Below are positions 6,075-64,000 of a stretch of DNA of 64,000 bases, piece by piece. The position numbers were made by a program, and so were the translations under genes. Source of the DNA: Macrocystis pyrifera (lineage: Eukaryota > Sar > Phaeophyceae > Laminariales > Laminariaceae); contig JASSKH010000041.1 of NCBI GenBank assembly GCA_031763025.1, positions 496,001 to 560,000 on the forward strand. The letters are read 5' to 3'. Every line of letters begins with the position of its first letter. The stretch's first letter is position 1. Below the pieces are notes generated by a model that was not told where the DNA came from, did no database searches, and was given only the letters and a program-made list of their open reading frames with translations.

Positions 6075-9000
6075 CTACTTGGATCCCGACTGCGCCGCGT
6101 CCGCCCCAGCAACAATCTCCAGGAGCTCCTGAGTGACGCTTGCCTGACGAGCGCGGTTGTAAGTAAGTGACAGCCGCTTGGAGAGGTCAGCGGCGTTGTC
6201 CGAGGCAGCCGCCATGGAAGCCATTCGCGCAGCCAGCTCTGCGGCAACCGACTCCTGAAGCATGCGCAGCACCTGGCCGTCGAGGTAGAGAGGAAGGATG
6301 GAGTTGAGGATCTGGATGGGGTCCTGCTCGAAGATGAGGTCCTGCGGCAGCTCAGCGGGCTCCGAGGATCCGACCTCTTCCCTCTCCACCTTGAACTTTC
6401 CTCCGTCGGTGGTGAGCTGGAAGATCTCGTCCTTCTCGTCCTCAATGCCACGGATGGACAGCGGCAGCAAAGTGCGGATCGACGGCTCCGACGCGATGAG
6501 AGAAACGAACTTCGTGTACACGATTTCAACGCTGTCCGTCTCGCCCGAGAGGTAGTCCGCCAGGAGCTCCTGGGCAATCGCCGAAGCCTCGGCCGCGTTG
6601 GGGGCCTGTCCGCAGTCGAACGCCCGTTTCACGGTGTAGATCTCCTCCCTGCGTCGGAAGTACTGCGAAATCTTCTTGCCGATAGTGATGTACTCCACGT
6701 TGTACCCCTGAGCCGTGAGCTCTTTCCCCCTCGCCTCCGTCTTCTTGATGGCGTACGAGTTGTACGCCCCGCACAAACCACGGTCGCCTGAGAGCCCCAC
6801 TAGCAGCACGTTCTTGACCTCCCTCGCGTTGAGAAGAGGGAGGTTAACGTCCTCCTTACCGAGCTGAGCAATGAGGGCCCCGAAGATGCTCTGAAGGGTC
6901 TCGGAGAAAGGACGAGTCTTGACTACGGCTTCTTGAGCACGACGCACCTTGGCGGCAGCCACCAGCCGCATTGCCGTCGTGATTTTTTTCGTGTTGTTGA
7001 CGGTGGTGATACGCTGCCTGTAACCCAGACAGGGGTTCGAAAAAGAGGGGGGATGACAACGGACGTTGTGAAACGAGCATATCTTTCGACTTTGGACCGT
7101 GAAAGCTACGTGCACGTATGTACCTGCCCAAGTCCCCTATGCGTAGCAATGGGGAGGGAAACAAAAGACGAAACACCATCCCGACCCACCCAACGTCGTG
7201 CTATGTGTGTGTACGACAATATTTTTCTTTTTCGTTCCGGGGTAATTGATCTACAGCAGTAACTCTGCCGCGCCCACAATGTCAGCACCCTGGGTGGGAC
7301 TGTCGTGTTGGTAGTGCCAGGAGGACTCATCTAACCCAAAATTTACCTCGACTCCACGGCTTCGACATGTTATGTACGCAGCGTACTTTAGTTGCATTAC
7401 AGTGTATATGGGGTCGCCAACAAGAAACACTCAACATGGGGACGGACGAGAACCTTCCTGTGACACCACCCTTCAACACCCCTGAGAATAGGCTACAGAA
7501 GTAATATACACCTCGAAGGATCTAGTATATACCAGGTATAGTGTAGCGCTCGCCGCGCAGCCCGACTTTCTCAGGGTCCAACAAAAAGTTGTGTTCTGAT
7601 GACGTTGTTTCACATTCGTGGCCTGTACCGTATGTCGAAAACGTGCTTAAACCGTGTTGTTGTTTTCTTCACATTATTAAACCGTTCTTTCTACCCGTCG
7701 ACATCCAGCACAGCCAGTGTCCGTGCCGATTCTTCAATCCTAGAGATACAACTTCTGTGGTCACAACGCGTGTACATATTTACAACCTCTGCAAGAAACA
7801 TGTACCTGATGCTGCTGTACTCCAAACGTAAATACTTCCACGACGAAAACCATACACGCTTCGGACAGATGATGATCTACACTGCTACTGTAGATGTGAT
7901 ATGATATATGTACAGTACGTACTTCCTCACTTGCCGTTGTGAGAGCTTGTGCACAATCTGCATCATGAGTAAATCCAACCGGGGAAACATGTGCTACTGC
8001 TGTAGATAATAAAAAGTCGGGAGTAGATCTGCCTTGAAAGATCTATTGCACAGCAGTAGAGTAGATAATCGAGTGGGAATCCATGATCTGTCCGAGGTGT
8101 GAAAACCTTGACTTTATTTGTACGAAACTAACAACCCAAAATGCACACAATCTTTCTGATGATTTGTGGGCATCAGCCGTCCGCCCTGATCCCATACGGA
8201 ATAGATTTCCAGAGCAGGTCCATGCCACTCAATCCACAAGCGCCAACAACGAGCTACAGAAAAGAAATTGCATATGCCGGCGTCCCCGGTGGCGTAGTAC
8301 GTACCAGGAAGGTGGTTCGCGTGTCTACCAAGATCAACTTCGTGGGTTCAAGTCTCACCGAGTGCATACTCGTACTCGTAAGGACTTTTTCTTGCATTAT
8401 AAATTGATTAGCGGAAAGCGCGAAAGCGTGAGTTAGCTACTTCGATGAAAGTCGACGAGCAGTGGGAATGCTGAACCCTATGCGCAACAAAATGAAGGCA
8501 CGTACGTACCCGGGGGGGAAAGGGACGACACCTATGACCACGGCTTGTCCAGAAGAAGACTGCTGAGGGTAAAACCTCCTATTAATACGAGTTGGAAAGT
8601 TACAGCAGTGATGATTGAACAACAATAAAAAAAAATACGGTACTGCTGTACAACATGTACAGCACTCGAACAGCAAACAGCAGGTTTAACAGCCGAAAGT
8701 AGCCTGCAGTATCTTACGAGTACACAGCGAGCAGTAGTACTTCGTACAGCAGTAGCCTACCAGGTACCAGGTATTTTTTTATTTTTATTTTTTCATCATT
8801 ACTTTTACTTTCCAGCCCACTCGTAGGAGGTTTTACCCTCGACGATCTTCTGGACAAGCCGTGGTCACAGGTGTCGTCCCTTCTCCCCCCCGGTACGTGC
8901 CTTTAGTTTTTATCGCGCATAGGGTTCAGTATTCCCACTGCTCGTCGATTTTCATCGAATGTACAGCTAACTCACGCTCTCGCGCTTTCCGCTAAAATCA

Positions 9001-9932
9001 ATTTTATGCAAGAAAAAGTCCCTATGAGCATGCACTCGCTGAGACTCGAACTCACGAAATTGATCTTGATAGGCTCGCGGACCACCTACCAGGTATACCA
9101 GTATCGATACTGCTGCATCAATACAAGTATACCGTCAAATATTGCTGGTGGAAGCTGCCAATCGACAAACGTCAGCATAGGTCTTCCCACGAGCGCTACC
9201 ACAGCTAGTGCCCGATGGTGAAAGCCCCCATTGCTGGGATTGTACATTACTGACACAGGCTGCAGACACAGATAGATATTCATGCAGGATGCAGGGCCCA
9301 TTCATTCACTTACGTAGGACGGACGGATCGGTATCACACCCCACGGGGACAGAACGAGTTGTTCGCGCGCTTTGAACTAGAATGTCGATCTGCGATTAGT
9401 CGCCGTCTTGGGAGTTGGGAGACGATTTGATTTGGTGGGCAATACTCTGCCAAACAGACCCAAAAATCCGGCGTGGACGCACGATGACCTTTAACATGTT
9501 TCGCTATCATGCAGAGGTATACCGGGGGTAGGTCCGATTCAATCGCCTGACACGCCATCATGCTATCATGCTCATATGCTGCAACTTTACGTGACGTTGC
9601 AACCCCTCAAACCCTGATAACGTGGGAAAAGCCTCACACGTTGTCTTGCCAGACCAAAGAAAAGGCCATCTCGAACTCGATGCACTTGGGGCATCAACAG
9701 CGCGGGTCGTAACCACGAATGAATCTTACCTAATAGCGTTTTCCTTCCCGCCCATCCTTGGCGTTACGACAGAGCGACGCGCCGAGGGTGCAGCTGCCAC
9801 GGTGTCCACGCTCTCAGGCACACGCACGCCGGTAAAGCTGGTCACGGCCATCGGCCCTGTGAATGCCGACGCGCATGCTGCCCCTCCCACAAGCACGGCT
9901 ATCGTACGTGCCAGTTGCACCATTGTGAGCAA
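6075..9932 (-). CDS. atpC: Plastid ATP synthase gamma subunit precursor
   Basis: The gamma subunit is the rotating shaft of the CF1 part of the plastid ATP synthase. There are two exons: 9932-9730 (start, targeting peptide) and 7017-6075 (mature protein), about 381 residues in all. The phase-2 junction joins ...GGKENAI to RQRITTVNNTKKITTAM, which is contiguous in the family. Exon 1 has a hydrophobic signal segment, then ACASAF|TGP, the ASAF-type site of bipartite plastid targeting in red-lineage secondary algae, then a Ser/Thr/Arg-rich transit part. Exon 2 has the diagnostic LVAAAKVRRAQEAV and GDRGLCGAYN motifs and the C-terminal helix. The region where green plants carry a redox-regulatory Cys pair reads GIEDEKDEIFQLTT, so that insert is missing. 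The start ATG at 9932 has an in-frame second Met three codons on, so either may be used. The 2712-bp intron carries two opposed SINE copies and other repeats. Confidence 0.93.
7667..7790 (+). repeat. Dispersed repeat, about 120 bp (copy 1 of 3)
   Basis: This copy contains CGTCGACATCCAGCA, then CCGTGCCGATTCTTCA, then a TAGAGATAC block ending in TCTGTGGTCACA. Related copies lie at 43135-43255 (same strand) and about 42060-42170 (opposite strand). All three are in introns or intergenic DNA. The family is unknown to me. Confidence 0.6.
7905..8045 (+). repeat. Fragment related to the CGGACAGAT-type MITE family
   Basis: It shares a TGCCGTTGTGAG...TTGTGCA block and a CCGGGGAAACATG block with the elements at 20784-21045 and 35003-35272. 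No clear terminal repeats are left, so I read it as a degraded copy. Confidence 0.4.
8271..8640 (+). mobile_element. tRNA-like SINE, copy 1
   Basis: The 5' end has polymerase III promoter-like boxes: an A-box-like TGGCGTAGTACG at about 8290 and a B-box GGTTCAAGTCT at about 8346. The B-box sits in a pairable T-arm, GTGGG/CTCAC. A shared body follows (GGGACTTTTTCTTGCA-like block, GCGGAAAGCGCGA, GAGCAGTGGGAATGC, GGTAAAACCTCCTA), and the 3' end is A-rich. The tRNA-like head, body and A-rich tail are the plan of a tRNA-derived SINE. Copies are at 8768-9105 (inverted) and 27571-27815. Confidence 0.65.
8768..9105 (-). mobile_element. tRNA-like SINE, copy 2 (inverted)
   Basis: It is the reverse complement of most of copy 1, at about 80-85% identity by eye. 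Its B-box reads GAGTTCGAGTCTC, closer to a canonical tRNA T-arm than that of copy 1. The A/T-rich tail points toward the tail of copy 1, so the two copies are tail to tail inside the atpC intron. Confidence 0.65.
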
Positions 9933-24742: not shown

Positions 24743-25796
24743 TTATCAGTATATAGTGTAGTATCAGTATATAGTGTAGTATCAGTATATAGTGTAGTAT
24801 CAGTATATAGTGTAGTATCAGTATATAGTGTAGTATCAGTATATAGTGTAGTATCAGTATATAGTGTAGTATCAGTATATAGTGTAGTATCAGTATATAG
24901 TGTAGTATCAGTATATAGTGTAGTATCAGTATATAGTGTAGTATCAGTATATAGTGTAGTATCAGTATATAGTGTAGTATCAGTATATAGTGTAGTATCA
25001 GTATATAGTGTAGTATCAGTATATAGTGTAGTATCAGTATATAGTGTAGTATCAGTATATAGTGTAGTATCAGTATATAGTGTAGTATCAGTATATAGTG
25101 TAGTATCAGTATATAGTGTAGTATCAGTATATAGTGTAGTGTCAGTATATAGTGTAGTGTCAGTATATAGTGTAGTGTCAGTATATAGTGTAGTGTCAGT
25201 ATATAGTGTAGTGTCAGTATATAGTGTAGTGTCAGTATATAGTGTAGTGTCAGTATATAGTGTAGTGTCAGTATATAGTGTAGTGTCAGTATATAGTGTA
25301 GTGTCAGTATATAGTGTAGTGTCAGTATATAGTGTAGTGTCAGTATATAGTGTAGTGTCAGTATATAGTGTAGTGTCAGTATATAGTGTAGTGTCAGTAT
25401 ATATCAGTATATAGTGTAGTATCAGTATATAGTGTAGTATCAGTATATAGTGTAGTATCAGTATATAGTGTAGTGTCAGTATATAGTGTAGTGTCAGTAT
25501 ATAGTGTATGTAGTATCAGTATATAGTGTAGTGTCAGTATATAGTGTAGTGTCAGTATATAGTGTAGTGTCAGTATATAGTGTAGTGTCAGTATATAGTG
25601 TAGTGTCAGTATATAGTGTAGTGTCAGTATATAGTGTAGTATCAGTATATAGTGTAGTATCAGTATATAGTGTAGTGTCAGTATATAGTGTAGTGTCAGT
25701 ATATAGTGTAGTGTCAGTATATAGTGTAGTGTCAGTATATAGTGTAGTGTCAGTATATAGTGTAGTATCAGTATATAGTGTAGTATCAGTAATAGT
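24743..25796. repeat. 18-bp minisatellite, about 58 units
   Basis: The unit is AGTATATAGTGTAGTATC. Two variants differ by one base (GTAGTATC or GTAGTGTC) and occur in blocks: the first half is nearly all the A form, the centre all the G form, and the right part mixed. One spacer disruption each lies near 25400 and 25505. Because 18 is a multiple of 3, the G-form blocks stay open and translate as SVYSVV repeats on one strand and DTTLYT on the other. I regard these as artefacts, not proteins. Confidence 0.95.
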
Positions 25797-27570: not shown

Positions 27571-27815
27571 CATATCCGGCGTCCCCGGTGGCTTGGTTGG
27601 TGGTCCCCGTGCCTACTAAAAGTCACACGGGTGATGTTCTCACTGAGTTCATGTACTCGTTGGGACTTTTTCTTGCACGAAAAATGATTACATGGCGGAA
27701 AGCGCGAGAGCGTGAGTCACCAAGGTTCGATGAAAATCGATGAGCAGTGGGAATGCCAGAAGCTGGAAAGTAAAAGTGTTGATGAAACAAAAAATGTAAA
27801 TAAAGGGCTAATATC
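27571..27815 (+). mobile_element. tRNA-like SINE, copy 3
   Basis: It opens with the same CATAT-CCGGCGTCCCCGGTGGC as copy 1, keeps GGGACTTTTTCTTGCA, GCGGAAAGCGCGAGAGCGTGA and GAGCAGTGGGAATGC, then skips the middle body and ends in CTGGAAAGTAAAAG and an A-rich tail. The tRNA-like boxes are more decayed than in the other copies. Confidence 0.6.
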
Positions 27816-35400: not shown

Positions 35401-38400
35401 CTGACGGCATGATGTCCGATCGAGATTCGTACGTGAGGTTCCATCCGACTGATCGGAGGGTACCGTGCATCCTTATCGCCAAAGGGGAGCTTCCTTCACA
35501 CTTCGTCGATGTGAGTAATTCGTCGCCCCATTTGATGTTTGCTCTCTCTTTTGCTATTTAGCGTTGTACCTGGTAGGATTTTATTTCAATTTACTTTAGT
35601 TTTTCCGTGTTCATATGTATGTCTGTGTTCGTGTGCAAATGATATCCCCGTGCTTCTTTATACCGTACGTGCCGATGTGCTGCGTAGAACCCGGGAGCGT
35701 ATGTCAACTCGATCTTCATGGCGTGCATGAAGCCTGAGTGGCCCGTGTCGTCGAAACTACCTTGGGGAGAAAACGTCCGATTCTTGGGCGAGGCAGGGGA
35801 GATAAGCACGGAGACGAAGGCTTTGCTGCGCGAGAATGGTGTGGACCACGGGGATTTCCCCCCCGGTGTGTTGGACTCTCTCGAACAGTTCTTGCCCGAG
35901 AACAGGGAGGAAGCCTACCCAGGAGCGAATATCAGAGGGTCGAGGTGGAAAATTCCTGAAGAAGAAATTGCCAAACGGCGCGACCTTCGGAAGGAGCGCA
36001 TCTTCACCATAGACCCAACCGGAGCCAAAGATCTCGACGATGCCCTCAGTGTTACACCTTTAGCTGACGGGACGATCGAAATGGGCGTGCACATTGCGGA
36101 TGTAACCTACTTCATTCGACCAAACTCTGACCTTGACCAAGAGGCTCGGCGACGAGCTACCACGGTGTACCTCATTCAAAAAGCAATTCCAATGCTACCG
36201 CCCCTGCTGTGCGAAGAGCTGTGCAGCCTGAACCCCCAGGTGGACCGTCTGACGTACTCGTGCATCTGGCGGATGTACGCCGACGGCACCCGCGTGGACG
36301 AGCCGGCGTGGTTCGGACGAACGGTTATACGATCGTGCTGCAAGCTGGACTACCAGACCACGCAGAACATCATCGAAGGGTCGATCAAGCCCGAACAGGC
36401 CTCGTCGACCGCATCACACCTGTGGGATCCCAACAGGTTTGACTTTTCTACAAGGTACCAGGTATATACCTTTGATGAGATGCAACATATACCAGGTATC
36501 AAGTAGCCCCGGAATTCCGTCCCAACCGGCACAGAACAGCCCATTGCGCGGCAGTCCTGTCTTCCATGCCTCTTGCATCGATCACGACCGTACGACGCCC
36601 CTCTTGCCGATCCGGGGGCGTATGTCGACCCTGTCCTTGTCCACCAGGCGACCCCAAGCCTTTACTTGCGAGGAGGTGTGCAACGATGTTTTGCTGATGA
36701 ATACATTGGCGAAAGAACGCCGAGCGAAACGCTTCAAGAATGGGAGTCTCTCTCTGAACGTGCCGAAGCTGGTCTTCAAACTTGACGACAACGGAAATCC
36801 GATCGACTTCGAGCCCTACCTTATTCGGGACAGCAACAAGTTGGTCGAGGTGGGTCCAGGATGCCGCCTTCCTCCCACCGTTACTGTTTGTATAAAACCT
36901 CGCCTACGCTTTTTTTGGAGCCCTACCTGTATGCCCATCTTCCATCGGTTCAAGCTCCGGGCACGTCAGTTCAAGCTGGGGGGACGTTTACGGCCCTTGT
37001 TACGCTGTTGATGTTGATGGTGTCGGAACGTTCATCGATGGTACGATTATGGCTTGACTGTAATAATGCTGATGCAGGTGTCTCGTGAAGAGTGTCGCAT
37101 GTGCATGATGGCACCTTGTGACGGTGAGGTTCACTTCGGTTGTCCAATATAACAGAAGAGAGAGATGGTTGGAGGTGTGGCGCTTATGCGCCTTGCTCTA
37201 GAGAGCAGTGGGGGTGGAGAGTTGGGGGAGTGAGCTGACAACTCTGGTGCGATCACTTGGCGCGATCACCGTGATAAGTCGGGCATGGCTCATGCTTCAT
37301 GACTCCATGATAGAATTATGTTCCAATACCCCATGATATGATGCACTACGCGTACCTTGTACTCTACCATGATTGTTTATCATACCGATAATCTTACCGT
37401 ACATCATGGTAGATCTGCCGACATCAAGGGGGTGTGTGGGACTACAGAAAAGCTATGCTATCAGGTCTGTTCGTATGTTATTTCGATGTCGGCAGATCTA
37501 CGATGGTCTACGGTAAGATCATCGGTAGGATAAACAACCTTTGTAGAGTACAGGGTACGGGTAGTTTATGGTATCATGGGGTACTGGATCATAATCCTAT
37601 CTTGGTGTCATAGAGCATAAGTCATGCCTGACTTATCAGGGTGATCACACCAAGTGATCGCACCAGAGTTATACGCCCCACCTCAGCTCACTCCCCCAAA
37701 TCTCTACCACCACCGCTCTCTGGAGCAAGGCCATATAAGCGCCATCTTTCCAGCCATCTCTCTCTTCTATTAAATTGAACAACGCGAGTGAATCTCACCA
37801 TCACAAGGTGCCATCATTCACTTGCGAGTCTCGTCACCAGACACCTACAGGTCATGAGTCTTGCTGCTAAAGCACCGTAAAATGGCGTTCTTTAAGTACG
37901 TCAGGGTCATTAAAGAGAGAAGACTGCTACCACACTTCTTCGCGTGAGGCAACAAGTAAGCACAGTTGCTGGCTCGTTTTCAAGCGGGAAGAAGTGGCAA
38001 GACAGCTCTATCACTACCGCGCGAGAAGCTACTAAACTGCTGTACATAAAACCTACTAATGTTCTGTCAATATTATACGAACAGACGCAAGAGTCTTGGT
38101 ATATTTCAACATTGAGATGCTGCAATTAATAAGATGCTGTTAAGGTGCTGCTAACTCCTGTACGTTCTTCATCCCATTGTCCTGCTGAAACAAATGAACA
38201 GGAATACATGCTCCTGGCGAACTTCTTGGTGGCGCAGCAGGTACTCGGTCGTAGCCATTAGCATGGTACGGTATGGTATGGTATGGTATGGTATGGTATG
38301 GTATGGTATGGTATGGTATGGTATGGCAGATTACAACACGCCGTTGCGAAGGTGTGTGAGGTGTACAAGTCGATGCTTGAAGTTTCATAAGCGCCGCCGC

Positions 38401-40515: not shown

Positions 40516-42780
40516 CGGTCGTCAGGTAAATATCTTTACGTGGATAGGTAACCCGCCGTAGACCGAAGGTAGCAGCACGAAATTGTTTCCAACTAAGTTG
40601 ACGCGTGGTGAGGTCTTCAAGTGATACCGCGTCAAACCCCTTGACCAAGAAAGCCAAAACACGTTAAAAAAACATTGAGCTAGATTTTCAGCTCTAACGT
40701 GTAGACCCACGGCCCTTTCACGCTCAAGTACCATGCATTATTTTTTGTTTGTGAGGATTCCATGTGATCTGCGTCGCCACGACGCAGCACTACGTATTGT
40801 TTGACAATATGGGATGAAGCTAGAGGATTGTCCACGGTTGTGACCCAGTGTACACCAACGCTTGTACAATTTTATGCTTCAAACTGTCTACGAATAGCGT
40901 GGTACTGACTGCTCTAACTCCCAGACCCCGGCCTTCTTGCGGTATTTGCGTTGCATTGCGACGCAAATGTCGTACGAAGCGATACACGAATTGAATCTAC
41001 TCGGGGCGGCCCCCACAATTCGGAGGGCCTACGTGTGATTCGGGTTGGTATCTCTCGCAGGAAACGGGTCACAAGATTACTGTGGGACACCCGCACTTTC
41101 GTTCTGAGAGGCCGGTTGTTGCTTGCTATCTGCCGACCGCTCCGGTCCTGTAGTACGTGGGGAACCGCTTGCTATTGATTGTTGAGCGATTTCCTCATGA
41201 TATACTGGCTGTAGATCGGTAAAAAAGAATGGGGTTGATTTCAATACGTCGCAAAGAACTGCGGCAGACGCCGATCAGAAAACCGCTCAGAACGCGTCTA
41301 CGAAGGTGCGTGTGAAGCGTTCCACAATTCGACGTAAGTAGGTCGAAGGGCGCTGCTCGTAGTGTCGAAGAACTTGATGGGCGATATATACAGTAGTTCA
41401 CGGCAGGATGGCTGGCGAGGTCGAGAGAGAGGTCACATCGCATCCCTGGCTGAAGAAGCGTCTCCATACAAAATAGACATGGCAAGCCGGGATTCGAGAC
41501 ACGGCGAGGAGCCAGAGAACAACAAGCGATGACAATGTCGTCGTGACAATATCATGTCATGAAACCAGCAATGATGCAAAGATAAAACAGCATGCACGCC
41601 TTACCAACCGCAGAAAGCCTGAAGTTCGTTGGCTCTGCATGCGGCGGGCGTCAGACAGTTAGTATTGTCTCAACACGACTATATCAAGTCGTCGAACAAA
41701 CATGGAAGAAGTAGCCCTAACCTGGAGGTATAATTATCTCGTACCTGGTATATACATTGCTTTGAAGCACATTATTTCCTTCGGTCTTTTAAGTCTTCCT
41801 CTGTTTTTGTAGTGATATTATTTCTCGTCCAGTATTTGATTCGTGTCGTCTGCCACACCTTTTTTTGGGAGGCACGACACTTTTTTTTAGTTTTTCTAGT
41901 TTTTTTTCTTGTCTTTCCGATTTCTCTCTGTTTCACACTATATATACCGTGCCTATCGTATTCGGTGATGATATCCAGGACCATGACATGGCATTGCATT
42001 GTCTACTACTCGTATGCTTACTGCATAACAATGTATGTATGTATGTGCTGTAGTATCTCTGTGTCGTAGTTTTGTGACACAGAGCTTGTTGCTCGTATCT
42101 CTAGGATTGAAGAATCGGCACGGGCACAAGTTGTACTGGATGTCGACGGACGGGTATGAAGAACGAAGAACACATCCGATAATATTATAGTAATATTAAA
42201 TACTACCAGGTAATACATACTACAGTAAGTGCACACGTCATCGATGGTATAAGCTTGTTTTTGTTCCTTCACCCAATCACATTGAATGCAACTCAGCCAT
42301 GGAACGCATGTTGGAACAGGCTCTGCCAGCAGCCTAAGATGCTTGCTATAACTTGGCCTTGAATCGTTCTTCTATGATGCAACACAATCAATCACGACAT
42401 GTATACGAACGAGTATCTGTATCGATCATACAACACATACAATACCTACCTGGTTCGTCGTCACCAGTTTGTTCTACAGTACAGAAGAATCAGACGACAG
42501 GGGAGCTATATCTTTTACTCGCCTTACCCCAATGCGCAAAGTGTAACAAGAATAACCAATAGAGGATACACATACAGTAGGCTACACAAAACCCGTCGCT
42601 CAATAATAATAACAACAGGTGCACCCCACCTCCGAGAAAGGAAAAGAAAAGGAAGAAGACCAAGGCTTTCCAAGTAATATAAAACCCTGTGTTCGTTTCC
42701 AAAACATAACCAAGCATCACAACAACCACCCACAACAAGCTTCGCATCACCGACGACAGAAAGGCAGGACACATCTCACA
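40516..42780. other. Intergenic, no gene recognised
   Basis: Poly-T/pyrimidine-rich DNA lies near 41790-41940. One copy of the 120-bp dispersed repeat is present on the minus strand at about 42060-42170. No coding segment is supported. Confidence 0.4.
42060..42170 (-). repeat. Dispersed repeat, about 120 bp (copy 2 of 3)
   Basis: It is the reverse complement of the copies at 7667-7790 and 43135-43255, with CGTCGACATCCAGTA, CCCGTGCCGATTCTTCAATC and a CTCTGTGTCACA end. Confidence 0.6.
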
Positions 42781-43703
42781 ATGGTGAGACCTCTTGTAAG
42801 CGAAGTACGTTCATTTCATCCTTGTAACTTTCTGCTTCCTGGGGATCAGCGCCTGATCACCCCTGTGCTAACAGCCCTACGTCCGATTATGTCTATGGCT
42901 CCACCTTGTCCAGGCGTCTCTAGCAAGAAAGTTCGCACCTTTGGCTGACCGCGTCCTGGTCAGGCGACTTGTGGCAAAAACGCAGGTGCGATGATTATAC
43001 GGCCTGTGTGCCGGGATAAAGGCCTAAAAAACTGTCGCACAGAATGGTGCAATGTATCCGCAAGTACCACTTTCTGCTCTCTGCTTCAAATACGCACTTG
43101 CTGGAAACTGGTGCTGTCTTTCTTCGAGTGTGTGTGTGTGTTCTTCACATTAAACCGTTCTTCTACTCGTCGACATCCAGCAAGCCCAGTGCCCGTGCTG
43201 ATTCTTCACCCTAGAAAGATACGAGCTCTGTGGTCACAGACTACGACACAGAGATAACACACCGTAATGCATTAATAGCCTACGCAATACCATGCCTTAC
43301 TCGCTACACAACAGCAGTAGTACAAGTAGTCCTGCTGTACGTACTGGTACTGCTGTACCTGGTACCACTCTACGCAGACTATGAAGTACCCCTTTAGCTG
43401 CCGCGATCTTCCGACCTAGTGTTACGTGCTCCTTCTTGAACACTTCACCTGATAATTTTTCTCCCCGTATCGCTACAGACAGCTGGTGGTATCTACCTTC
43501 CCGACAGCAAGCTAGGGAAGACAAACGAGGGCGAGGTTGTTGCAGTAGGGCCGGGTCGGGTGACGGAGACGGGCGCGAAGGTGTCGGTGAATGTTGTTGT
43601 AGGAGACACCGTTCTGCTCCCCGAATACGGCGGGCAGACCTTGAACCTGGGGGATGAGGAGCTCAGCTTGTTTCGCGATGAGGACATCCTGGGGAAATTC
43701 CAG
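42781..43703 (+). CDS. Mitochondrial-type 10 kDa chaperonin (Cpn10/GroES)
   Basis: Cpn10 is the lid of the Cpn60 folding chamber. Exons: 42781-42795 (MVRPL), 42914-42985 (ASLARKFAPLADRVLVRR...KTQ) and 43479-43703 (TAGGIYLPDSKLGKTNEGEV onward), all phase 0. The order matches Hsp10: the N-terminal ...PLADRVLVRR strand, the mobile loop around TAGGIYLP, VVAVGPGRV, VGDTVLLPEYGGQ, then LFRDEDILGKFQ. The single-domain length and short N-terminus fit the mitochondrial matrix protein rather than the double-domain plastid Cpn20. After FQ the sequence offers a donor (CAG|GTAATC). Family members end one or two residues later, so a tiny last exon is probably still to be found downstream; reading through adds a poor tail of about 14 codons. 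Confidence 0.88.
43135..43255 (+). repeat. Dispersed repeat, about 120 bp (copy 3 of 3), in Cpn10 intron 2
   Basis: It contains TTCTTCACATTAAACCGTTC, CTCGTCGACATCCAGCA, a CCCGTGCTGATTCTTCA block and CTCTGTGGTCACAGA. It is closely similar to the copy in the atpC intron. Confidence 0.65.
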
Positions 43704-45786
43704 GTAATCTATTGGCGTGGCAGAGCTGCCCAGAGTTGCCACGCGTGAATGTTGAGCGTGTTGAGCTACAGCAGCTACTCGTACATCAGCAGTGGATGCT
43801 GAGATCGGAGATCGGTCGAAGACTATCGGCCTTGAGTGCTGTCAACATGTCATACCACTTGTAGTGTACTCGTCGCAGAATCGCACGACTACTCGTGTGT
43901 AATGCGCCTGGTAGGGTAAAAAAACCGAGACCTCGTTTTGGGCATCACGACTCGGACGAGTCGTACATGATGCCCATTGTAACGAAGATACTTTCGTAGG
44001 CTGGCTTTCTCCTGCAATTTCTGCTGTACTACGAGTATACCGTTGATGCACGTGGCGATCAATGGCGAAGCGGGTGCACCCAGCAGGCTTGACTCAGATT
44101 CCAGATGAAGTTTGGTTGTTTGGTTACCTGGTATGCATGATACGTATGTACCTACCTGGTGTGTGTAGTTATTTGTTAATTCGTACTGGTGTGTGATAGT
44201 TTCGCCACGACTTCGCCGCGGTGCTGTACTGCTGCCCGCTTGAAAATTGAAGTATCAACTGGCTGTTTTTTATACATGGTACACGGGTATCATAGATCCG
44301 CAAAACACGACGGTAGTACGAACAGTCCAGTCGAGTCGACTAACCAATGGCCTTACTGCACTACCTAATAGACAAGCTGTAAGTAACGGCTGTTCTGGTG
44401 CGAATCACGGCATGAGTCTTACATCTACTGGACTACTGTCCGTAGTCGAGGGATCGAAGTCGGTGTGGCGTGACCCTGAAACCCAAAGCGTGACCCACCA
44501 CATGTGAATACTTCCTGCAACGTGTATTTTGTACTTTCACCGGCGCGTACTGGTTAAGTCGAACGACACCGTTTGTGATATTTCCCGTGATGAAGTAATT
44601 AGGAGTTTCAGCAGCAGTGTGGTAGTGTGGACTATCTGGCTATCAACCACCTTGTCAAAGCGGGGCCCAGCTGAAAACACTACCGGTTTTCCAAACCGCC
44701 TGGTATAAAGGCCGAGAATGTGTTACGATCTTTGATAAGTAGGATGACGGATTATGCACGGCATCTGGCATATACGTAAGTGTTGATGAGTTGGAAAGAC
44801 CCCATGCCTCGTAGAACATGAGCTGAAACGCCCAAATCATCGTCGAAAGCCAGACACTCTTGACAACCGAGCTGTTACACTGTAGAATGATGCACCTATT
44901 TATAGGATTATTTTAACCGTGCGCGGATTGTCCACGCCGCAAGCATCCTGTACCGTCAATAAGATTACTGAGGCCCTTAAGTCGCGACTAACCGCCAACG
45001 CCCACCGCGCTTCTGGCCGCTACATATCATGCACGGACAGGGCTAGGTGACGAACGGGGTTTTCTACGTAACTGCGGCGGAGGCACGCGCAGAACGGCCG
45101 TTTACGAGACGGCGTCCTACAGTTGGGGGGGGGGGGTCCGCATGCGTCGTTGGGGGCGTCACGGCTAGCAACCCAAACGCGCGAACAGCAGTAGTCCGTG
45201 TTCCGTTCTGGGCAGCCGCTTCATGTCATGCGCACGAGGACATGCAGTTGCAGTGCCATCAAAGCTGCCAAAAAATGACGTATCGGGTTGTGACGGTAAA
45301 TATGGGCGCCAAGAGGCTACCAGCGTGTCTGGCGCAGCGCATCGATATTACACCCATGTGGGCAGCGCTGAATCATAGCTGAATTAACCCCGGGTCTTTC
45401 GTTTGTGAAGGCTTCCGCGCTGTTACTTGCCTAATTTTGACAGGAACTAGTGGTTTTCATCGCTCGCGAGTGAAAGTGCATTCGCTTGCTTTTTCCCAGT
45501 TCGGCGTTTTTTTTCGTTTGGGTCGTTTCTAACTACCGAATGAAATAGCAAAAAACTTGCTATTTTGGCGAGACAAAATTTCCATCAAGTTGCCAAAACG
45601 TTCTATCGTGAAACACTGCATATGTGGCAATATTTGGCAAATGTTCGCATCAGAACGTCCTCAGATTTTATTCAATCCCCTTACAGCAGCAGGTACCCGA
45701 CGGCGCGCCGACGCTCTCTATGAAGTAAATGCTGCCGCAGAAAGACTCCAGGCGCACCCCATGTACCTTAGAGGTCGGCAGTCCTT
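43704..45786. other. Intergenic, no gene recognised
   Basis: It contains scattered TACCTGGTA motifs and a poly-G run near 45125. I see no supported coding segment except a possible missing last codon or two of Cpn10. The last 8 bases, CAGTCCTT (45779-45786), are the left target duplication of the next element. Confidence 0.4.
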
Positions 45787-47695
45787 CACACCTCGGATAA
45801 CGTAACGCTCGGATAACACTTATCTACGTTATGGGGCCTAACACAGGAACGTGGTAACGTACTAACATAGTGTTAGCACTAGAGGAGCGATCACGGTAAC
45901 GCAGTAACACAGTGTTAGCTGGAAACCCACGAACGTGCACGAGCCTTAACGTTATGTTGCTGTTCGGTCTCGTCCAGCTCTGGTACAGTAACATGTTACG
46001 CCGTGATCAGTCCTTGAACTAACACCGTAACACAGTGTTAGGCTTTGACCAAACACGTAAGTTATCACTCTAACATTCCCAGATCGATATCCGCATGTTT
46101 ACTAACACGATAACATGATGTTATTGCCGACGCAGCGTTAGACGTAACACAATAACATTATGTTACCCTTAGGAGGAGTGTTATACATAACACCCTAACA
46201 TAACGTTACCATGTTCGCCAGCACTAACACATAACATTGTCTTACAGATAACACACTAACGTAACATAACGCAATGACCAGCACTACGAACACTATACGT
46301 TATCTGGACCCCCCATCTGATTGCCTTAGGGTCGGATAACGTAACACTTAAAACGTACGTTAGATACGTTACAGTCTTAGCCGGCCCATGCGTAACATTA
46401 TGTTAGGATGTTAGCCTAAATGCGGAAGTCCCTGTAACATTATGTTACGGGTGTTACCGTCAGTAAAGATCTGATGGTAACATTCCGTTACCGTGTTACT
46501 ATCAAAACCAATCCGGTTCTAACTTTATGTTACTGAGTTACCGTTGGGGCCGAAGTCGTTCTAACGTAATGTTACTACGTTACCCTTTGGATCTTCCCGA
46601 GATCCAACATGTGTTAACTGTGTTAGTGGTAAAGCGGGCGTGTGGGAGTAACATAGCGTAGCCGTGTTATCCAATTTGGCCGACATCCCAGTAGGGGATA
46701 CCTAAAAAAAAATACTCGGGAGGGAGGATAGCATGGCATCCCCGGTAAAAAAAAAAAACGCCTCCATATTTTAAAACCCCAAAACAGGGGATATTTATGA
46801 GGGATCCCCACAAAAAACGCCTCATTTATTTTTGTGGAAACCCCGCCAGTACGTTATCCATCTATAACACATTACGTTACCCATCTATAATCTGCACACT
46901 CGCACGTACGAGTTAACACGGCAGTAACATATTGTTGAGTTTAGATTGGGGGTGTACGTTATCTACTAACTTGTGTCACTACATACATTGCATACGAGTT
47001 AACATTAACATAATGCTATTAATAGTGTTTTATCGATCATATACGTTATCCGTTTGACGTGTGTTATGTTGTTATGGTAGCAAGACTTCCGTAATACCCT
47101 CACATAACGTCGCTCGAAACGGACTGCTGCTGCGGCTGATACAGTAACATAATGTTAACGTTGTATTGACCATGCACGTTATCTCTCCAACGTGTGTTAC
47201 GATAGCCCCTAGGAATTTCACTAACACACTAACATAGTGTTATGTACGCGTTTATTTGGCCGTGTACGTTATCCGTCGAAAGGGTGTTACGGTAGCACGA
47301 AGAATCCGGCTGACACACTAACATAACGTTACTCGCTACGGGCTGATGCCGCTAACACGGTAACATAATGTTAACGTTTAAGTGACCATGTACGTTATCC
47401 CTTTAACGTGTGTTACGGTAACCACCAGGAATTCCGCTGACACGCTAACATAGTGTTACTCGCTATGGGTTGCATACCCTAACACCGTAACACATATACT
47501 GCGGTCAGTACGAGATCAAGGTAACACTCTAACATAATGTTACGCGATTGCCCGCCAATATCATAACACACTAACACTATGTTATCACAAAATCCAGAAA
47601 GTAGTTAACGTAGTAACGTAATGTTACGTTTTTTTTTTTTTCGCTGACGCCTAACATTAACATAAAACGTTAAGTGTTACGTTATCCGAGGTGTG
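45787..47695. mobile_element. TIR element of 1909 bp built of short palindromes, with 8-bp target duplication
   Basis: The ends are CACACCTCGGATAACGTAAC and its exact complement, 20 bp each. The flanks are CAGTCCTT at 45779-45786 and CAGTCCTT at 47696-47703, a perfect 8-bp target site duplication. Inside, some 25 or more degenerate copies of a palindrome around TAACATAATGTTA recur every 40-80 bp, usually preceded by CTAACAC. In the right half they alternate with TACGTTATCC, the core of the TIR, and GTGTTACGGTA, giving a higher-order period of about 110-130 bp. A different segment with ATCCCC and poly-A (about 46675-46845) interrupts the array. No open frame of note is present. An 8-bp duplication fits hAT, P or Merlin-like transposases acting in trans; the family is not identified. 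Confidence 0.88.
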
Positions 47696-47703
47696 CAGTC
47701 CTT

Positions 47704-48257
47704 TCAACCCGGCCAAAATCCCCTGGGAAAAGCTAGGATGGCTCCTGTTTGCGATTCTGTTTTTGCCCCCACAAAAAACGACACCCATGTGGCGTCCACA
47801 CGGGGCTCACGGCCAGTGTCGCTAGCCCTATTATCGCTGTGATCAATACCACCGGGTCTCCTTCGTATTTCCCCTATTACACAAGTTTGAGCGAGTCTAG
47901 CGTGGGGTGTCGTGGGGTGGTCTGGTTTGTACAACCTTGCGTTGGCGTTATTGGGCTAAAATAGCAAATTTCACTTCCCAAAAACTTGCGAACGAAGCAC
48001 AACAGAAACATCCCAAAAAGTGTTTGGCAACTTTGCTATTTTGACAAGTCAAAAATACGTGTCGTTAGAAATGCCCCTTGGGCGGAAGCACAAAACATCG
48101 TGTTCTGACCTTCAGCAGCGGCAGGAAGTGTGCTAATTTTTTCAACAGAAAAATATAAATAGGCCCACTGGACGCATCTTAGAGGGGGTAACTTTTCGGG
48201 TTTTCAAAAGTGCTGATTCAGGTTCGACACGTCGTCCGAAGCGTTGACGCTGATTTC
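47704..48257. other. Intergenic, no gene recognised
   Basis: This is unremarkable sequence between the TIR element and the 3' end of the TIMELESS gene. An AGCAAAGTTGCCAAACAC-like stretch near 48025 (minus strand) faintly recalls 45560-45600. Confidence 0.35.
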
Positions 48258-56514: not shown

Positions 56515-56900
56515 TGAAAAGTATACTCACAGCATTGTCAGATTATCTTGAGAGGAAATATCCCGTGAGGTATTGCGGAGATTCGGGGGGGTTTCGTGTC
56601 TGAGTGGATCTACGATCGGGATACCATCTTTACCCCTGAATTGTGTTTTAGGCCGCATGTGTTTGTGACGTACGCTGTGGCTTGCTACTTCTTCTTGTAA
56701 TCTACTTCCTTTCCCGACTCCGTGTCGACGACTCCGTGTCGAGGACTCCGTGTCCAGGACTCCGCGTCCTTCAATCCAAACTACTAAACCGGGGTTAATC
56801 AGCCACCGTACAAAAGGGGGTCCGTCCACCCAGGGGCTAACACGCCACCGCCACCGCTGCTATCAAGTCCAGCTTCAATACATTTCATATCATCAACAGG
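56515..56900 (+). repeat. Copia 5' LTR (end uncertain)
   Basis: The start is fixed by comparison with the copy at 63897. The end cannot be fixed because the 3' copy is cut by the window. A primer binding site is expected somewhere between 56850 and 57070. Confidence 0.6.
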
Positions 56901-58990
56901 GCTCCTCAGCCACGACAAGGGTACGGGTTGTTTATAGGGTTTATTTCGTCTTTCTTTTCCGCCGAGCATCGGGCTATCCCCCTCGGCAACAACAACAAGG
57001 GCGCCCGGAGCACAGGGGCTACTCAACACGCTAGCGTTGGTACGAGTCGTCCACGCTTCTGTGCAAAAGGGCTGTGAGGATGAGGTTCTTCCCGTTTAGG
57101 ATTCCTTATCTGGGGACTTGGATTACGCCGGTCATCGATGGAGACATGGCGATGGGAGGAGGAGGAGGAGCAGCAGCATCTCCTCAGGATTCTGGTCAGG
57201 ATGAGGCTGATCAGCGAGGGGTGGCCTCAGAGGAAAGGAGGGAGGATGCACGACAGGACCTGCCGAGTCTAGAGGACATCCGGCGGCTGACAATCCTGGC
57301 GGATCTGATACGTCAAGGGGTTGGGCAACAGAGCGGGCCCGCCCACCCTTCAGGCATGTCTACAACTGTAGAAGTACGAACTAAACTTGAGATTAGAGAG
57401 TGGACTGGTATGGTAGGAAAAGGAGAAAGCCTTCACACTAAGTTTAGGGTGTTTGAGAGTTCATTTCGTTCATATCTGGCAGCTGAGAAATTGTCTGACG
57501 TTCTTGGGTACGAGGACATTCCCGTAGGGTTGCCTGACGTGGATTTGGAAATGCTCAAATTGAACAGAGGTGCAGAAAGAGTGGAGAAGTCTTTGAGAGT
57601 ATGGAACTTGCTGCTGACAAAAATCACCGACGGTCCGACTCAAAACCGAATCGTCGCGTCTGGGAGCCCTCAGCAAGGATGGAGGATTTTTGTGTCACAG
57701 TACAGAGAAGGATATGACATGGAGGGAGAGCGTTTAGAGAGGGAATGGAACGAGTTGTGGCAGGGCGATGGTGAAGATGTCTTGGAATACCTTCGTCGTG
57801 GGGAGACTATCGTGATGAACATGAACTCCCGCTTGGGCCCTAGTGGCCACGGTAAAAAGCCTGAAGATGTTGTATGTCGTCATATCGCCCGACGTCTAAA
57901 CACCTCTTTTACCCGCGCTCGGGAATCCCTTATTTTTTTTTTCCGAATCTCTCGAGGAAACACCTGGAGTTTACCTTGACACAGGCCCAGCACGAGCGTC
58001 GGCAGTCCGGGGGAGAGGGACACCGAAGTGAGGAGACGAGGCACGCGCTCTACACTGGCGGCATGGGTCGGAGTGGACCATCCTACGGCAGGGGCCAGGA
58101 TGATGGTGGAGCACGCGCTGCAGGATGGAACGGTGGAGGAGCACGCGCTGCAGGATGGAACGGTGGAGGAGCAGGCGCTGCCGGATGGAACGGTGGCGGA
58201 GCAGGCGAGCGAGGCCCTCACCAACAGTCACCGATGTTCTGCAGACGACACGGCCCGAACGACTCCCACAACACCGCGGACTGCGTGGCCCTTCGACGGG
58301 AGTTCGAGGAATTCTTGGCCTTCCGCGAGCAGAGAGGAGCCCAGGGATTTGCGCATGAAGGCCGACAGACGGGGCGGGAAATTGACGGAATTCGCCGCCC
58401 GGACTTCGTGCAAGATCGACCCAGGGAGCAGCCACAACGTTCAGACGGGAATTGGGGTCGAGGCCTCCCGCCAAGGCAGGCACCTGGTCGTGGACGCGGG
58501 CCTGCAGGGTACACGGGTCGCCAACCGGGGGGGAGAGGTTTCGCGGACGGGCGTCCTTCCTCCTCCGGCGGCAGGGGGGCGAGCAGAGCACCGAATTTCC
58601 GCCCTAATTTTCCACCTCGCTCTGCCACCCACAACGGGCCCCCGCGTTACGCGAACTACGCTGGGCACAACGACGGCTACGGGTACAACGCTACTGCTGA
58701 CGAGCGCTGGGCTGCTTCGGAATGGCAATCCTACGAGGAGCAGCAGTACTCCCCCGAGACGCAAGAGTACGGCCTCGCAGCTCAAGCGAGCGGCTCTCGG
58801 GAAGGCTACGGAGACGTGAGCGGAGGATACGGCTCAGGCTATTTCTCCGGCGGCGGGGGAGTTTACCCGCCGCAGCCCGCCGTTCATGGCGATGGCACAT
58901 ACGGCTCTTACGCAGGATACTCTCCAGCTGGACCAGACGCCTTTCAGCCGATGCGGTATCTGGAACCGAACGGCGCGTCACAGCAGCAGC

Positions 58991-59035
<45 letters not shown>

Positions 59036-62000
59036 ACAGCAATACGGAGTTCAGCAGCCCGCCAGCGCCGCCTCATTCTCTCTCACTTCGTCGTCTCCCT
59101 CTTCCGGATCGCCGTCGTCTCAAGGGCCTCTTCGTAGCTGTGTGGCATTGAATGTGTCTCGAGGCAAGTTTGATTTGGTGTCCGATTTGGTGTCTGATTC
59201 GGCGTCTGACTTGATTGATTTCGGTGTGGAATCTCCTGCTTCTGAGTGCAAGTCTGGTGTGACTAAGGAGAGTGAAACTGTGCTTGTGAGTGCGCATGTG
59301 ACGGAATCTGCTGTGAGTGCTGCTTTGCTGTGCGAACCCCAATCCTCGCTCACTCCCTCCCCTCCCGGAAGTGAGAAATGGACGTCTGATTCTGGATCCA
59401 CGTCGTACGTAACGAACGACAAGACTCTCATGTACGATTTGCGTGACGTTGAGCCAAACCGCGAGTTCATCCAGATTGGAAACAAAGGCATGATTCCCGT
59501 GGTAGGGGTAGGAAGCATCAACTTGCGATTCCACATGTATGATGAAGACGGATTCGTGAAGGATTTTGACGTGCAATTGAAGGAAGTTTTGTATGCACCA
59601 CAGATCGGCTCCAACCTTTTTTCCGCGTGGAAAGCTTCTCACCGCCAGGTCGTTACCCTCGATCCCACGGGTACCCACCTCATGGAAGGGCAACTCAACT
59701 TTGCACGTGGTAAATCGAGCGATTTCTTGTATGCCACACGTTTGCCCAACGACCCAAGCAGGCAGGTGATCAGTGTTCCCCGATTGTTTCCGACTCCGTC
59801 TTGCCCGCCTGCATCAGATGACGTACGTGATGTTGCGAATTCGTTTTTCGACTTGTCTTTGTGTGCAGAAACGCATCCCGACATGCACCTCGGTCGGGAA
59901 GTCGAGGGAGTTCTGAGTGACGTGAGGCCTGACGGTGGTTGTGATGAGAGTTCCAGTTGGTGTTTCTCGCCTGAAGTGATCCCAGAGAGTGAAGCAGAAA
60001 TGGACGCGCGACAGTTTGACAGAATAGAGCATGAGCAGGCGAATGCTGTTTTGGGTCCCGGTTCGAATCCATTCTTTGTGGGAAACCGCACGTCACACAT
60101 CGACGTTAACGACTTCCACCGTGCGAATGGCCACCTTTCCGAATTTCTGTTGCGAGAGACCGCCCGCCAACAGGGTATCACTCTCACAGGTGTGATGCAG
60201 CCGTGTGGGGATTGCATGGCAGCGAAGGGGAGGAACACACCCGTGAGAAAAAGGGCGGGCTCGCGGGCGGAGGAGCCGAACGACCTCGTGCACCTCGACT
60301 TCTGCGGGCCGTACAGCGCTTCCCTCGGCGGCAATTGCTACATGCTGTACGCCGTGGATAGCGCGACGCGGTTTTCCAAGTCGTACGCTTTGCGGCGGCG
60401 ATCGGAGGGTCTCGTGGTGTTCAAGCGTCTCATCGTGGATCTCGCTCGCATCGCCAAGCGCCCCGTCCGCTGCATTCGCGTGGACAACGACGCCGTCTGG
60501 ACCAGCGTCGCTTTCCGCGATTTCTGCGCGAGCGCGGGCATCGCCGTCGAGTTTTCTCCGCCCGGCGTCCAGCAGTACAACGGAGTGGCCGAAAGCGCGA
60601 TCTGGCGGGCGAACAAGGCGGGGATGGCTGCGCGGCGCTGTGCCGCCCGTCTTCTCGGGCCTGGGGGTTTCTCGAACATCCCCGGCCTCGACGAGCGCGG
60701 CGACAAGCTGTGGGCCGAGTCTGCAAAATGGGCGACGGAGGCGTTCAACCAGTCGGGGACGACCGCAAACGAGGGCCGCCGGTCGCCGCAGGAGCTGTTC
60801 ACCGGGAAGAAGGGGCCTTTCCGTGTCCTGCCGTTTTTCCAGCGAGGATACATGCGCGTCGAGCGGCGGAACAAGATGGAGGACCAGGCCGTCGTCTGCC
60901 ACTACCTGAACGGAGGCGACAACCACGCGGACTGCTGCGTCAAGGTCGTGAAGGCGCGCACGGGGCATGTTTGCTACACGAGCAACGTATCGTGGGCGTC
61001 GCTGCCGTCGTCGGGGGGGGGGAATTCACGTGGAGTCGGTGTCCCTCTCTCCCCTTCCGCGCCTGCGCCGCCCCCGCACCCAGGTTTCCAGATCCAGTTC
61101 GTGCCGCCGCAAGGGCCTGCCGCTCCGCCGCCGTTCAGGGCCGCCGCGCCGTCGCCGTTGTCCGTGGAGCCGCCCAGGTTCGGAGCCATGCCGCTGCCCA
61201 GAGGAGCTTCGCCGTCTTCTGCGCCGGCCGCGTCATCGCCGGCGCCGTCGCCGCAGCAAGCATCGGGAGCGCCGTCGTCCGGCTCGCACCCGCTTCCGGC
61301 ATGGTCTCCGTCCCCGATCCATGGAGCTTCTTCGCTTGGTGGTTCATCATCATCTGAGCCGACGCCGGCGGCGTCGTCGCGGCAACAGCGCCCGCCGCCG
61401 GCAGCTGCCGCGAGATTTCCGCCTCTCACTCCGCATGCTATGAGACAGGTCGGGGGTGAAGGGGATCGTCGGATTCAAGGGCGCACTCGGCTGCAAGCAC
61501 GGGCGATCGCGGAGCAGAGGATGCTTTCCCCGATGGTGGATGGGGCCGTAAACTCGCCGCTGCCGGAGTCTTCGCCGGGAGATGGGCACCGTTTGGGTCT
61601 TGCTTCTCAGGTCGGGCCGAACGTGATGGCGGCGTGGGAGAGGACTGCCTGTGCGACGAGGGAGCATATCGATGCGGTCATTCGTGACGAGGTTCCGCCT
61701 CTTCAGCGTCCCGAAATGCCCACTTGACACGCGAGTGACCTTCACGTGCCGAAAAGTTACAGGGATGCCGTGCAGGGTGATCATTCGGTGCAGTTTTCAG
61801 ATGCCATGCAGAGAGAAATTCACGGGTTGGCTGAAGGACAGGTTTTCGAGCCTGTGCCGGAGCAACAGCAGATAGACAATTGTATCGGGTCGAAATGGGT
61901 GTTTGACTGGAAGGTTGATGCGTTCGGTTGGCCTGTGAAAGCGAAGGCGAGACTTGTTGCCAGAGGTGATATGCAGAGAGAATTCTTGGATTTTGGGGAA

Positions 62001-63896
62001 CTGTATGCACCTACTGTAGATGTGTCGTGTGTTCGTTTGCTGGCAGCCTTGGCGTGTGAGCTTGACTTGGGGTTGTTTCACCTGGATGTTGATCAGGCTT
62101 TCGTCCGAGCGGAACTCGAGGAAGAGGTGTTCATGCGTTTACCGCAGGGATGTGGTGCGTTGTCGGGGAAGATCGTGAATTTGGGCAAGAGTCTTTACGG
62201 GTTGAGGCAGGCATCCAGGCAGTGGTTTGCGAAGTTGAAGAAATGTCTTTTGCGTCTGAGTTTCGAACAGTGCCTGGCAGATCCATGTGTGTTTCGTCTG
62301 ATTGAGGAAGGAAAAGTCGTTTTGCTCTTGGTGGTTCACGTCGACGACATTTTTGCAGTGGGAGAACAGGCAAGGTGTGATCAGTTCAAGGAAGACCTGA
62401 ACAAATTGGTTCCAGTGAAGAACTTGGGGGATTTGACGTGGTATTCCGGGTGCTATTACGAGAGAGACAGGGAGGCAGGAAGATTGACGATTTCCCAGAA
62501 GACATACGTCGACAACCTGGCAGGAGAATACGGTGTTACGTGGGGGAAAAGTACGCCGTTGAGCACGACGTACAGACTTTGGGAGTTTGATGTAGATGAG
62601 CCGGAGGTGAACGAACCTTTTCGACAATTGGTCGGATCGCTTCTGTGGGTCGCTCGGTTGACCAGACCCGATCTTTTGAACGCAGTACGGGCAGTAGCGA
62701 GGTATTGCAGTTCGCCGAAACTGATTCACTGGAATGCGGCGCTCAATATCCTGGGGTATGCAGTGAGGACGAGCCATTTTGGTATTTCATTTCAGAGAGG
62801 TACTGTCGAGGGGCTGAACTTGGTTGCATTTGCAGACGCTGACTACGCAAGCAAGGCAGCAGACAGGAGGTCGGTGTCAGGAGGAGTGATTCTGTGTGCG
62901 GGGGGGCCGGTCAGCTGTATCTCGAAGACGCAGAATTGTGTGACAACATCTACGACGCAGGCAGAGTATGTGAGCATGGCTATGGTTGCGCACGATATTT
63001 TGTTTCTGAGGCAGGTATGGCGGTTCATGTTGCCGAAGGCTGGTATGCCGTGCATTCCTTTGTTTGAGGATAACGAGGGGGCGATTCAGATCGCGAAGCA
63101 TCCGATTTCGAATTCGAACTCGAAGCACATTGACGTGCGGCACCACTTTCTGAGGGAGCTAGTGGAGAGGAAGGAATTGGAAATTATTCACGTAGCTTCG
63201 AGGTACAAGCACGCAGACTTTCTCACGAAGCCGTTGCCTGAGAGAGAGTTTGAGTTCCACCGGAATTTTGTGATGAATTTGAGGTGATTTTTCGGATGAC
63301 AGTTTTTGTTTTCAGATGGAGGATTAAGTGTTCGTGATTTTATGGAGTTTGTCGGGTTCACCGTTTTCACTTGGTGACACCGCATGTTTTTTCTGGTTCT
63401 GTTGGAGCGCAGTTTGTGGAGGATAACATGAAATTACCGTTTTACAAGGGTGGTTTCCACTGCGCAATCTATATTTTTTAGTTTTGATACCTTGACGTGA
63501 AATTGGCGTTTTACCATGCGATTTCACGAAATTGGATATTTGAAGAAATGAAGAATTGCCGTTTTACCCTGGCGATTTTGAAAAGGGACTACATTTTAGG
63601 ATTGATGAAACCTCGCAGAATTGCCGTTTTACATTGACGATTTGGGTAGGTTTCGAAAACAATGTTTGAATCGTTGGAGTTATTTTCTCTGTTCGAAATA
63701 TTTTTGAATTCCAGGATGCGAGGATGGTTTGATTTTCTTGGAATTTATTTTTGGTATTGATTGAGGAATGATTTGAATGATAGTGAGAACGTTGTTTTCT
63801 GTATTGAATGAGTACAAGTATGATTTCCGGTATGACAATTTGACGAGGAGTTGAAGATTCGGGTCGAAATCATGACAATGTCGCGAGCAGGGGGGC

Positions 63897-64000
63897 TGAA
63901 AAGTATACTCACAGCATTGTCAGATTATCTTGAGAGGAAATATCCCGTGAGGTATTGCGGAGATTCGGGGGGGTTTCGTGTCTGAGTGGATCTACGATCG
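63897..64000 (+). repeat. Copia 3' LTR, first 104 bases
   Basis: It follows a purine-rich tract (GAGCAGGGGGG) typical of a polypurine primer, and is identical to 56515-56618 as far as it can be read. Confidence 0.9.

Follow-up and report, generated by a model that had tools for sequence, protein, structure and literature searches.

What is a stretch of DNA that is built very largely of short palindromes, and what might its motifs be for? We asked this of a 1,909-bp element at positions 45787-47695 of a 64,000-nucleotide stretch of Macrocystis pyrifera DNA (contig JASSKH010000041.1, positions 496,001 to 560,000, forward strand), referred to here as the window. The reading we favour, with a probability of roughly 0.6, is that of a non-autonomous cut-and-paste DNA transposon whose body is a predicted array of phased binding sites for a transposase or accessory protein acting in trans.

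The element lies between two copies of CAGTCCTT and has perfect terminal inverted repeats (TIRs) of exactly 20 bp, or 23 bp if one mismatch is allowed, with the termini CACACC...GGTGTG. A perfect 20-bp TIR and an exact 8-bp target-site duplication are the marks of a TIR transposon. Both had been proposed in a preliminary description of this DNA, and both hold, the duplication at 45779-45786 and 47696-47703, and the TIRs as CACACCTCGGATAACGTAAC and its exact inverse at the right end. It had also been considered that the duplication might belong to a longer repeat, but comparison of the flanks showed no such repeat: beyond CAGTCCTT, the longest direct word common to both flanks of about 0.5 kb is 12 bp, at non-corresponding places. 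One further base (G) to the left of CAGTCCTT also matches, so that lengths of 8 and 9 bp are both possible; the symmetry of the TIRs favours 8 bp. A search of the window for bases 1-19 of the TIR, with up to three mismatches, hit the two element ends and nowhere else (chance expectation 0.01); in exact form these 19 bases had no match in IMG/VR or in GTDB species contigs.

Palindromes were scored at 12 positions against the consensus TAACRYNRYGTTA, and a site was accepted at a score of at least 11. The element holds 22 such sites, 17 of them scoring 12/12, compared with a mean of 0.33 and a maximum of 3 in 500 dinucleotide shuffles of the element (for 12/12 sites, a mean of 0.02 and a maximum of 1), and there is no site of at least 11 in the remaining 62,091 bases of the window. 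The abundance of palindromes reported earlier is thus borne out. Half-sites, defined as TAACA/G or the inverse, number 109 in the element (57 per kb, versus 2.2 per kb in the rest of the window), and no other 1,909-bp stretch of the window holds more than 13. Repetition of the TIR core (GGATAACGTA/TACGTTATCC), likewise reported earlier, is seen in 7 exact copies, both ends counted, with 11 at up to one mismatch and 20 at up to two. Rightward of 46850, 11 of 12 core sites at up to two mismatches, and all 5 exact ones, are oriented as the right end. The motifs had been thought to make up the whole body; dyads and end-like motifs do build it, but half-sites cover 28% of its bases and the region 46681-46846 is free of them. 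The palindromes have arms of 5-6 bp about one central base, and a cruciform or hairpin function was set aside, since single cruciforms with such arms would be weak.

The palindromes are regularly spaced. When a gap was accepted if it lay within max(1, k) bp of k x 42, 15 of the 21 gaps between neighbouring palindromes fitted 42/43 bp or a near-multiple, whereas randomly placed sites gave a mean of 2.3 such gaps and a maximum of 8 in 20,000 trials. Self-identity at lag 42 is the highest of all lags from 5 to 399, at 6.5 standard deviations over their mean, followed by lag 216 at 4.0. The preliminary description stands, with 22 close palindromes and with the correction that the basic period is 42 bp. 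This length is about four turns of B-DNA, which may be the cause of the spacing.

From left to right, the element and its borders contain the following features:

45779..45786, plus strand: left target-site duplication CAGTCCTT, exact 8 bp
45787..45806, plus strand: left TIR CACACCTCGGATAACGTAAC, 20 bp, containing a TAACG half-site and, in TAAC, the beginning of another
45853..46279, plus strand: left array, with palindromes at 45863, 45905, 45947, 46028, 46111, 46153, 46196 and 46232, and the extra half-site upstream where present (forward units)
46332..46351, plus strand: internal end-like copy, with 20 of 20 bases equal to the inverse of the right terminus at 47670-47689 (14 from the TIR, 6 beyond it)
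46393..46671, minus strand: middle array, with palindromes at 46393, 46435, 46478, 46520 and 46562 (gaps 42, 43, 42, 42) and the extra half-site downstream (reverse units)
46681..46846, no strand: motif-free core of 166 bp that separates the middle array from the right one and contains A-runs and blocks of GGGG/CCCC
46850..47630, plus strand: right array, in which end-like TACGTTATCC sites are interspersed among forward palindrome units, with tandem duplications of 216 bp and 127 bp
47676..47695, minus strand: right TIR, 20 bp, exact inverse of the left TIR
47696..47703, plus strand: right target-site duplication CAGTCCTT, exact 8 bp

The repeated unit is larger than the palindrome. Alignment of 22 units on their palindromes (the degenerate one at 47488 included, that at 47006 left out) revealed a second conserved block 8 bp upstream, giving the motif TAACAC-NN-TAACATAATGTTA of 21 bp in total; columns outside it mostly carry less than 0.45 bits, the exception being position -10 with 0.71. 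In 19 units (46232, 47006 and 47614 being left out of the 22 sites of at least 11), the 21 bp are 75.7% identical on pairwise comparison, a value inflated since the units were picked by their palindrome, and a 15-bp stretch of spacer is 27.7% identical, compared with 24.8% after shuffling (maximum 28.5%). To remove the bias of picking by palindrome, a selection-free test was run on all 22 sites, 17 from the outer arrays and 5 from the middle array. Among the 17 outer palindromes, pairwise identity reaches 61.3% in the 6-bp block at -8 to -3, which had no role in site picking (shuffled mean 30.3%, maximum 37.4%, n = 2,000); in the mirror block of 6 bp on the downstream side it is 26.0%, against 25.4% shuffled. 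Identity of the downstream spacer is 26.8% versus 25.0% shuffled, a value matched by 79 of 2,000 shuffles. The most similar spacers, those of 47145 with 47361 (80%) and of 47319 with 47446 (73%), lie inside the 216-bp and 127-bp duplications. It would seem, then, that the units were born by duplication and that their spacers drifted nearly to saturation while sites and spacing were retained. Conserved sites beside near-random spacers, among the units of one copy, are the strongest evidence here that something may bind them.

The third half-site also gives the units a direction. Of the 17 outer palindromes, 11 have TAAC at -8 and none has GTTA at +17; of the 5 middle-array palindromes, none has TAAC at -8 and 4 have GTTA at +17. 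If a match at 4 of 5 bases is accepted, 13 units share one direction and belong without exception to the left (45863-46208) or right (47230-47626) array; 4 are reversed, every one of them in the middle array (46393-46574), and 5 stay undecided. The middle array also has a degenerate palindrome at 46649. The 216-bp tandem duplication amounts to about 5 units and the 127-bp one to about 3. Of 1,000 half-site-preserving shuffles, 6 reached an inverted match as long as the internal end-like copy (20 bp), and another 200 shuffles gave a maximum of 21. Local inverted matches link the middle and right arms (e.g., 46368-46496 with 47567-47440, 64%). These matches are spread over several registers, and the two ends did not come to lie opposite each other when aligned with MAFFT, so that an origin of 46332-46680 as an inverted copy of the right arm is no more than possible. 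The core at 46681-46846 has no second copy in the window. The word CCCCACAAAAAACG occurs once in it (46806-46819) and once in the right flank (47767-47780), with no other occurrence in the window.

The element is without coding capacity. The longest run between stop codons in any of the six frames has 76 codons, and no open reading frame (ORF) of 100 amino acids lies between 45382 and 48210. The preliminary description had suggested, as one possibility, a non-autonomous element grown from its own subterminal repeats, and this view gains from the TIRs, the duplication, the missing coding capacity, the dyad and end-like motifs and the partial tandem duplication in blocks of 216 and 127 bp. Since TAAC half-sites also sit inside the TIRs (GGATAACGTAAC), one DNA-binding protein probably serves both ends and body. 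In the mechanism we propose, a trans-acting protein encoded by an autonomous partner, either its transposase or an accessory protein, would bind the half-sites as dimers plus one extra subunit. At 42 bp, about four turns of B-DNA, the units would lie on one face of the DNA and could be occupied cooperatively, which would load many protein copies and aid the pairing of the ends. The body would have grown by duplication of whole units, and selection for a good substrate would have kept the sites and their phase while the spacers drifted.

A stronger version of this idea can be put forward only tentatively. The three-half-site dyads, locked at four helical turns, might form a lattice that is what selection maintains in the transposon and on which a transposon-encoded protein builds a continuous filament or comb over the element, a titration or loading platform that out-competes the autonomous partner. 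If true, this would be a new architecture of parasite DNA. More generally, if other copies split in the same way into conserved sites and free spacers, they would preserve a natural trace of how selection has acted on sites for transposase or anti-silencing proteins and on their helical phase, and would show how far a non-autonomous element can convert its body into binding sites. The 21-bp motif is a direct bait for finding the binding protein.

Several points weigh against the binding-site reading as a whole. The element is known from one copy, and nothing in our analysis explains how interior sites would help transposition. No DNA-transposon transposase was found at a Pfam E of 0.01 in 90 of the 107 window ORFs of at least 100 amino acids, a scan that short exons would escape; the 17 unscanned ORFs all lie within a Copia-type element, from 57.8 to 62.8 kb. 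Six of the 21 gaps are off the ladder (81, 36, 161, 444, 139 and 89 bp), and the high identity within the 13-bp palindrome arises partly by construction, the units having been chosen for it. The spacers are not fully random, since the upstream spacer (-24 to -10) is 30.0% identical versus 25.2% shuffled, a value matched by 0 of 2,000 shuffles; because this identity exceeds the shuffles, some common descent of the units still shows. The target site also fits imperfectly with the hAT superfamily. Transposons of the hAT type make 8-bp duplications, end in CA...TG and prefer, though not strictly, duplications of the form nTnnnnAn. The 8-bp CAGTCCTT and the ends of the element agree with the first two features, which are not exclusive to hAT, and CAGTCCTT departs from the preference, its second base being A and its seventh T. 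Finally, the left 894 bp (45787-46680) fold as RNA with a z of -9.4 (none of 20 shuffles as low), a property that binding sites do not need.

This folding is what a source of hairpin RNA would offer, with facing arrays giving long hairpins that supply small RNAs or serve as a structured RNA. The right 850 bp (46846-47695) fold more modestly, at a DNA fold z of -2.3 with again none of 20 shuffles as low. However, strong folding is to be expected of these motifs, because palindromes that recur can pair with one another whatever the register; no Rfam match was found at gathering thresholds, the 42-bp spacing is unnecessary for folding, and we regard such an RNA role as highly improbable. A decayed 42-bp minisatellite, in or bounded by a TIR element and with its sites under no selection, is equally hard to credit. 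It would account for the tandem period, the duplicated blocks and the slight similarity among upstream spacers, but neutral decay should not spare half-sites, including the one not used in selection, while spacers become near random, and most spacings are held to within 1-2 bp. A plain satellite is expected to decay uniformly along its units and to lack TIR and duplication bounds, which is not what we observe.

A role in expression rather than in the synapsis of ends is the more serious competitor, although we consider it rather unlikely. Here the motifs would recruit a DNA-binding protein of the autonomous partner that lifts host silencing and lets the element escape it, as VANC does on VANDAL. 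The targets of VANC21 are dense, same-orientation short motifs, often in tandem, in non-coding parts (PMC5735166), and the array studied here likewise lies inside the element, keeps its orientation block by block and has been amplified by roughly whole numbers of units. Yet the presence of the half-site inside the TIRs and the recurrence of end-like sites in the body point to a transposase, an element with no genes would presumably gain less from anti-silencing, and the VANC21 motif is the 9-bp YAGTATTAY (PMC5735166), whereas the motifs here are phased dyads. It is doubtful, and less probable again, that the transposon carries a captured host array, regulatory or chromosomal, for a transcription factor or a centromere- or replication-type binder. 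Dyads in constant phase are typical of cooperative host binders, and the 14-bp word CCCCACAAAAAACG is common to the core (46806) and the right flank (47767). The 64-kb window has no motif array elsewhere, however, and the body shares its half-sites with the TIR, both of which argue against capture.

The surroundings of the element include a chloroplast-type ATP synthase gamma gene (6075-7115, minus strand), whose best PDB matches are chloroplastic chains but which is without their 9-residue cysteine-bearing stretch, a DIS3L2-like exonuclease and two ORFs with TIMELESS matches. The Copia-type long terminal repeat element at 56515-64000 has integrase and RVT_2 domains and identical 104-bp stretches at 56515 and 63897, the latter at the end of the window. 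Given this content, nuclear DNA of a photosynthetic eukaryote is the most likely origin, and the stretch missing from the gamma gene hints that this eukaryote may lie outside the green line. The 9-bp palindrome TACCWGGTA occurs 30 times in the window, against 0.38 expected from shuffles, between 7530 and 44133 and with none in the right 20 kb; a whole-word literature search returned no paper for it. At 24744-25796 lies an 18-bp minisatellite, TATCAGTATATAGTGTAG, with 96% matches over about 59 copies. The stretches 37073-37849 and 8375-9028 are each a long, imperfect inverted repeat, resembling foldback elements or miniature inverted-repeat transposable elements; in and beside the second of them, 8271-8471 and 8931-9091 match 27571-27756 in direct as well as inverted orientation. 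Copies of a dispersed repeat, 79-85% identical, lie in both orientations at 7661-7765, 42095-42165 and 43137-43238, and a 280-bp direct repeat (835-1114 and 2278-2557, 1,443 bp apart) is 94% identical.

Searches outside the window gave 14 IMG/VR loci with two palindromes 26-32 bp apart. These hold 2 palindromes of at least 11 in 8 loci, 3 in 3, 5 in 2 and 9 in 1, none near 22. The locus with 9 has an AT-rich tandem repeat with a 58-bp unit at 2659-2845, and one of those with 5 (L008) has a 21-bp tandem repeat at 1768-1864, both with TAAC/GTTA palindromes. The 21-bp composite motif was met in 1 IMG/VR locus and 3 GTDB-contig loci, with 1-2 palindromes each, which we take as chance. In the literature, five motif strings occurred in two papers, both unrelated to judge by title and the start of the abstract, and among the matches listed, which were few and are no proof of absence, there was no paper on an element made wholly of such sites.

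The earlier statement that no described family resembles the element is nevertheless too strong, since parts of its design are shared with Galileo (PMC3688188), hAT/Hermes (PMC10368747) and VANDAL (PMC5735166). In Galileo, a member of the P superfamily, footprints and gel shifts place sites for the THAP-type transposase within tandem repeats of the long TIRs, and in Galileo-G three sites were identified in a TIR of 1.2 kb (PMC3688188). Tetris has TIRs of up to 1,735 bp with tandem repeats of about 220 bp that seeded satellites (PMC4079207). Internal tandem repeats with extra transposase sites are thus common to Galileo/Foldback elements, where they are shown, and to the present element, where they are predicted; however, long TIRs enclose the tandem repeats there, whereas here a TIR of 20-23 bp goes with 22 dyads on a 42-bp ladder.

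Among hAT elements (Hermes, Herves, Tol2 and Ac), the likeness lies in the 8-bp target of Hermes, the many short sites and the phased palindromic pairs. Hermes has a quasi-palindromic subterminal pair bound cooperatively by two BED domains, and a shift of the pair by 1 bp severely impairs cleavage, so that exact phasing matters (PMC10368747); Herves has many short subterminal sites (PMC3143072). Hermes has its sites clustered near the tips, and one further palindromic pair lies deep inside (PMC10368747), whereas regular units run through the body here and no transposase was seen. VANDAL21 carries dense motif arrays that recruit the element's own anti-silencing protein (PMC5735166), and dense, oriented, tandem-amplified short motifs in non-coding DNA are found here too, although VANDALs, which are Mutator-like, carry genes and VANC21 reads the different 9-bp motif given above. 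Rehavkus and Phantom, among Mutator-like and related elements, combine minisatellites with duplications of 8-10 bp (PMC6446971), but in them a transposase gene goes with the minisatellite; the present element lacks such a gene and has a short TIR. On present evidence the element cannot be filed securely under hAT, P/Galileo or Mutator. What distinguishes it, in degree, from all of these systems is a body-wide series of phase-locked three-half-site units with nearly random spacers.

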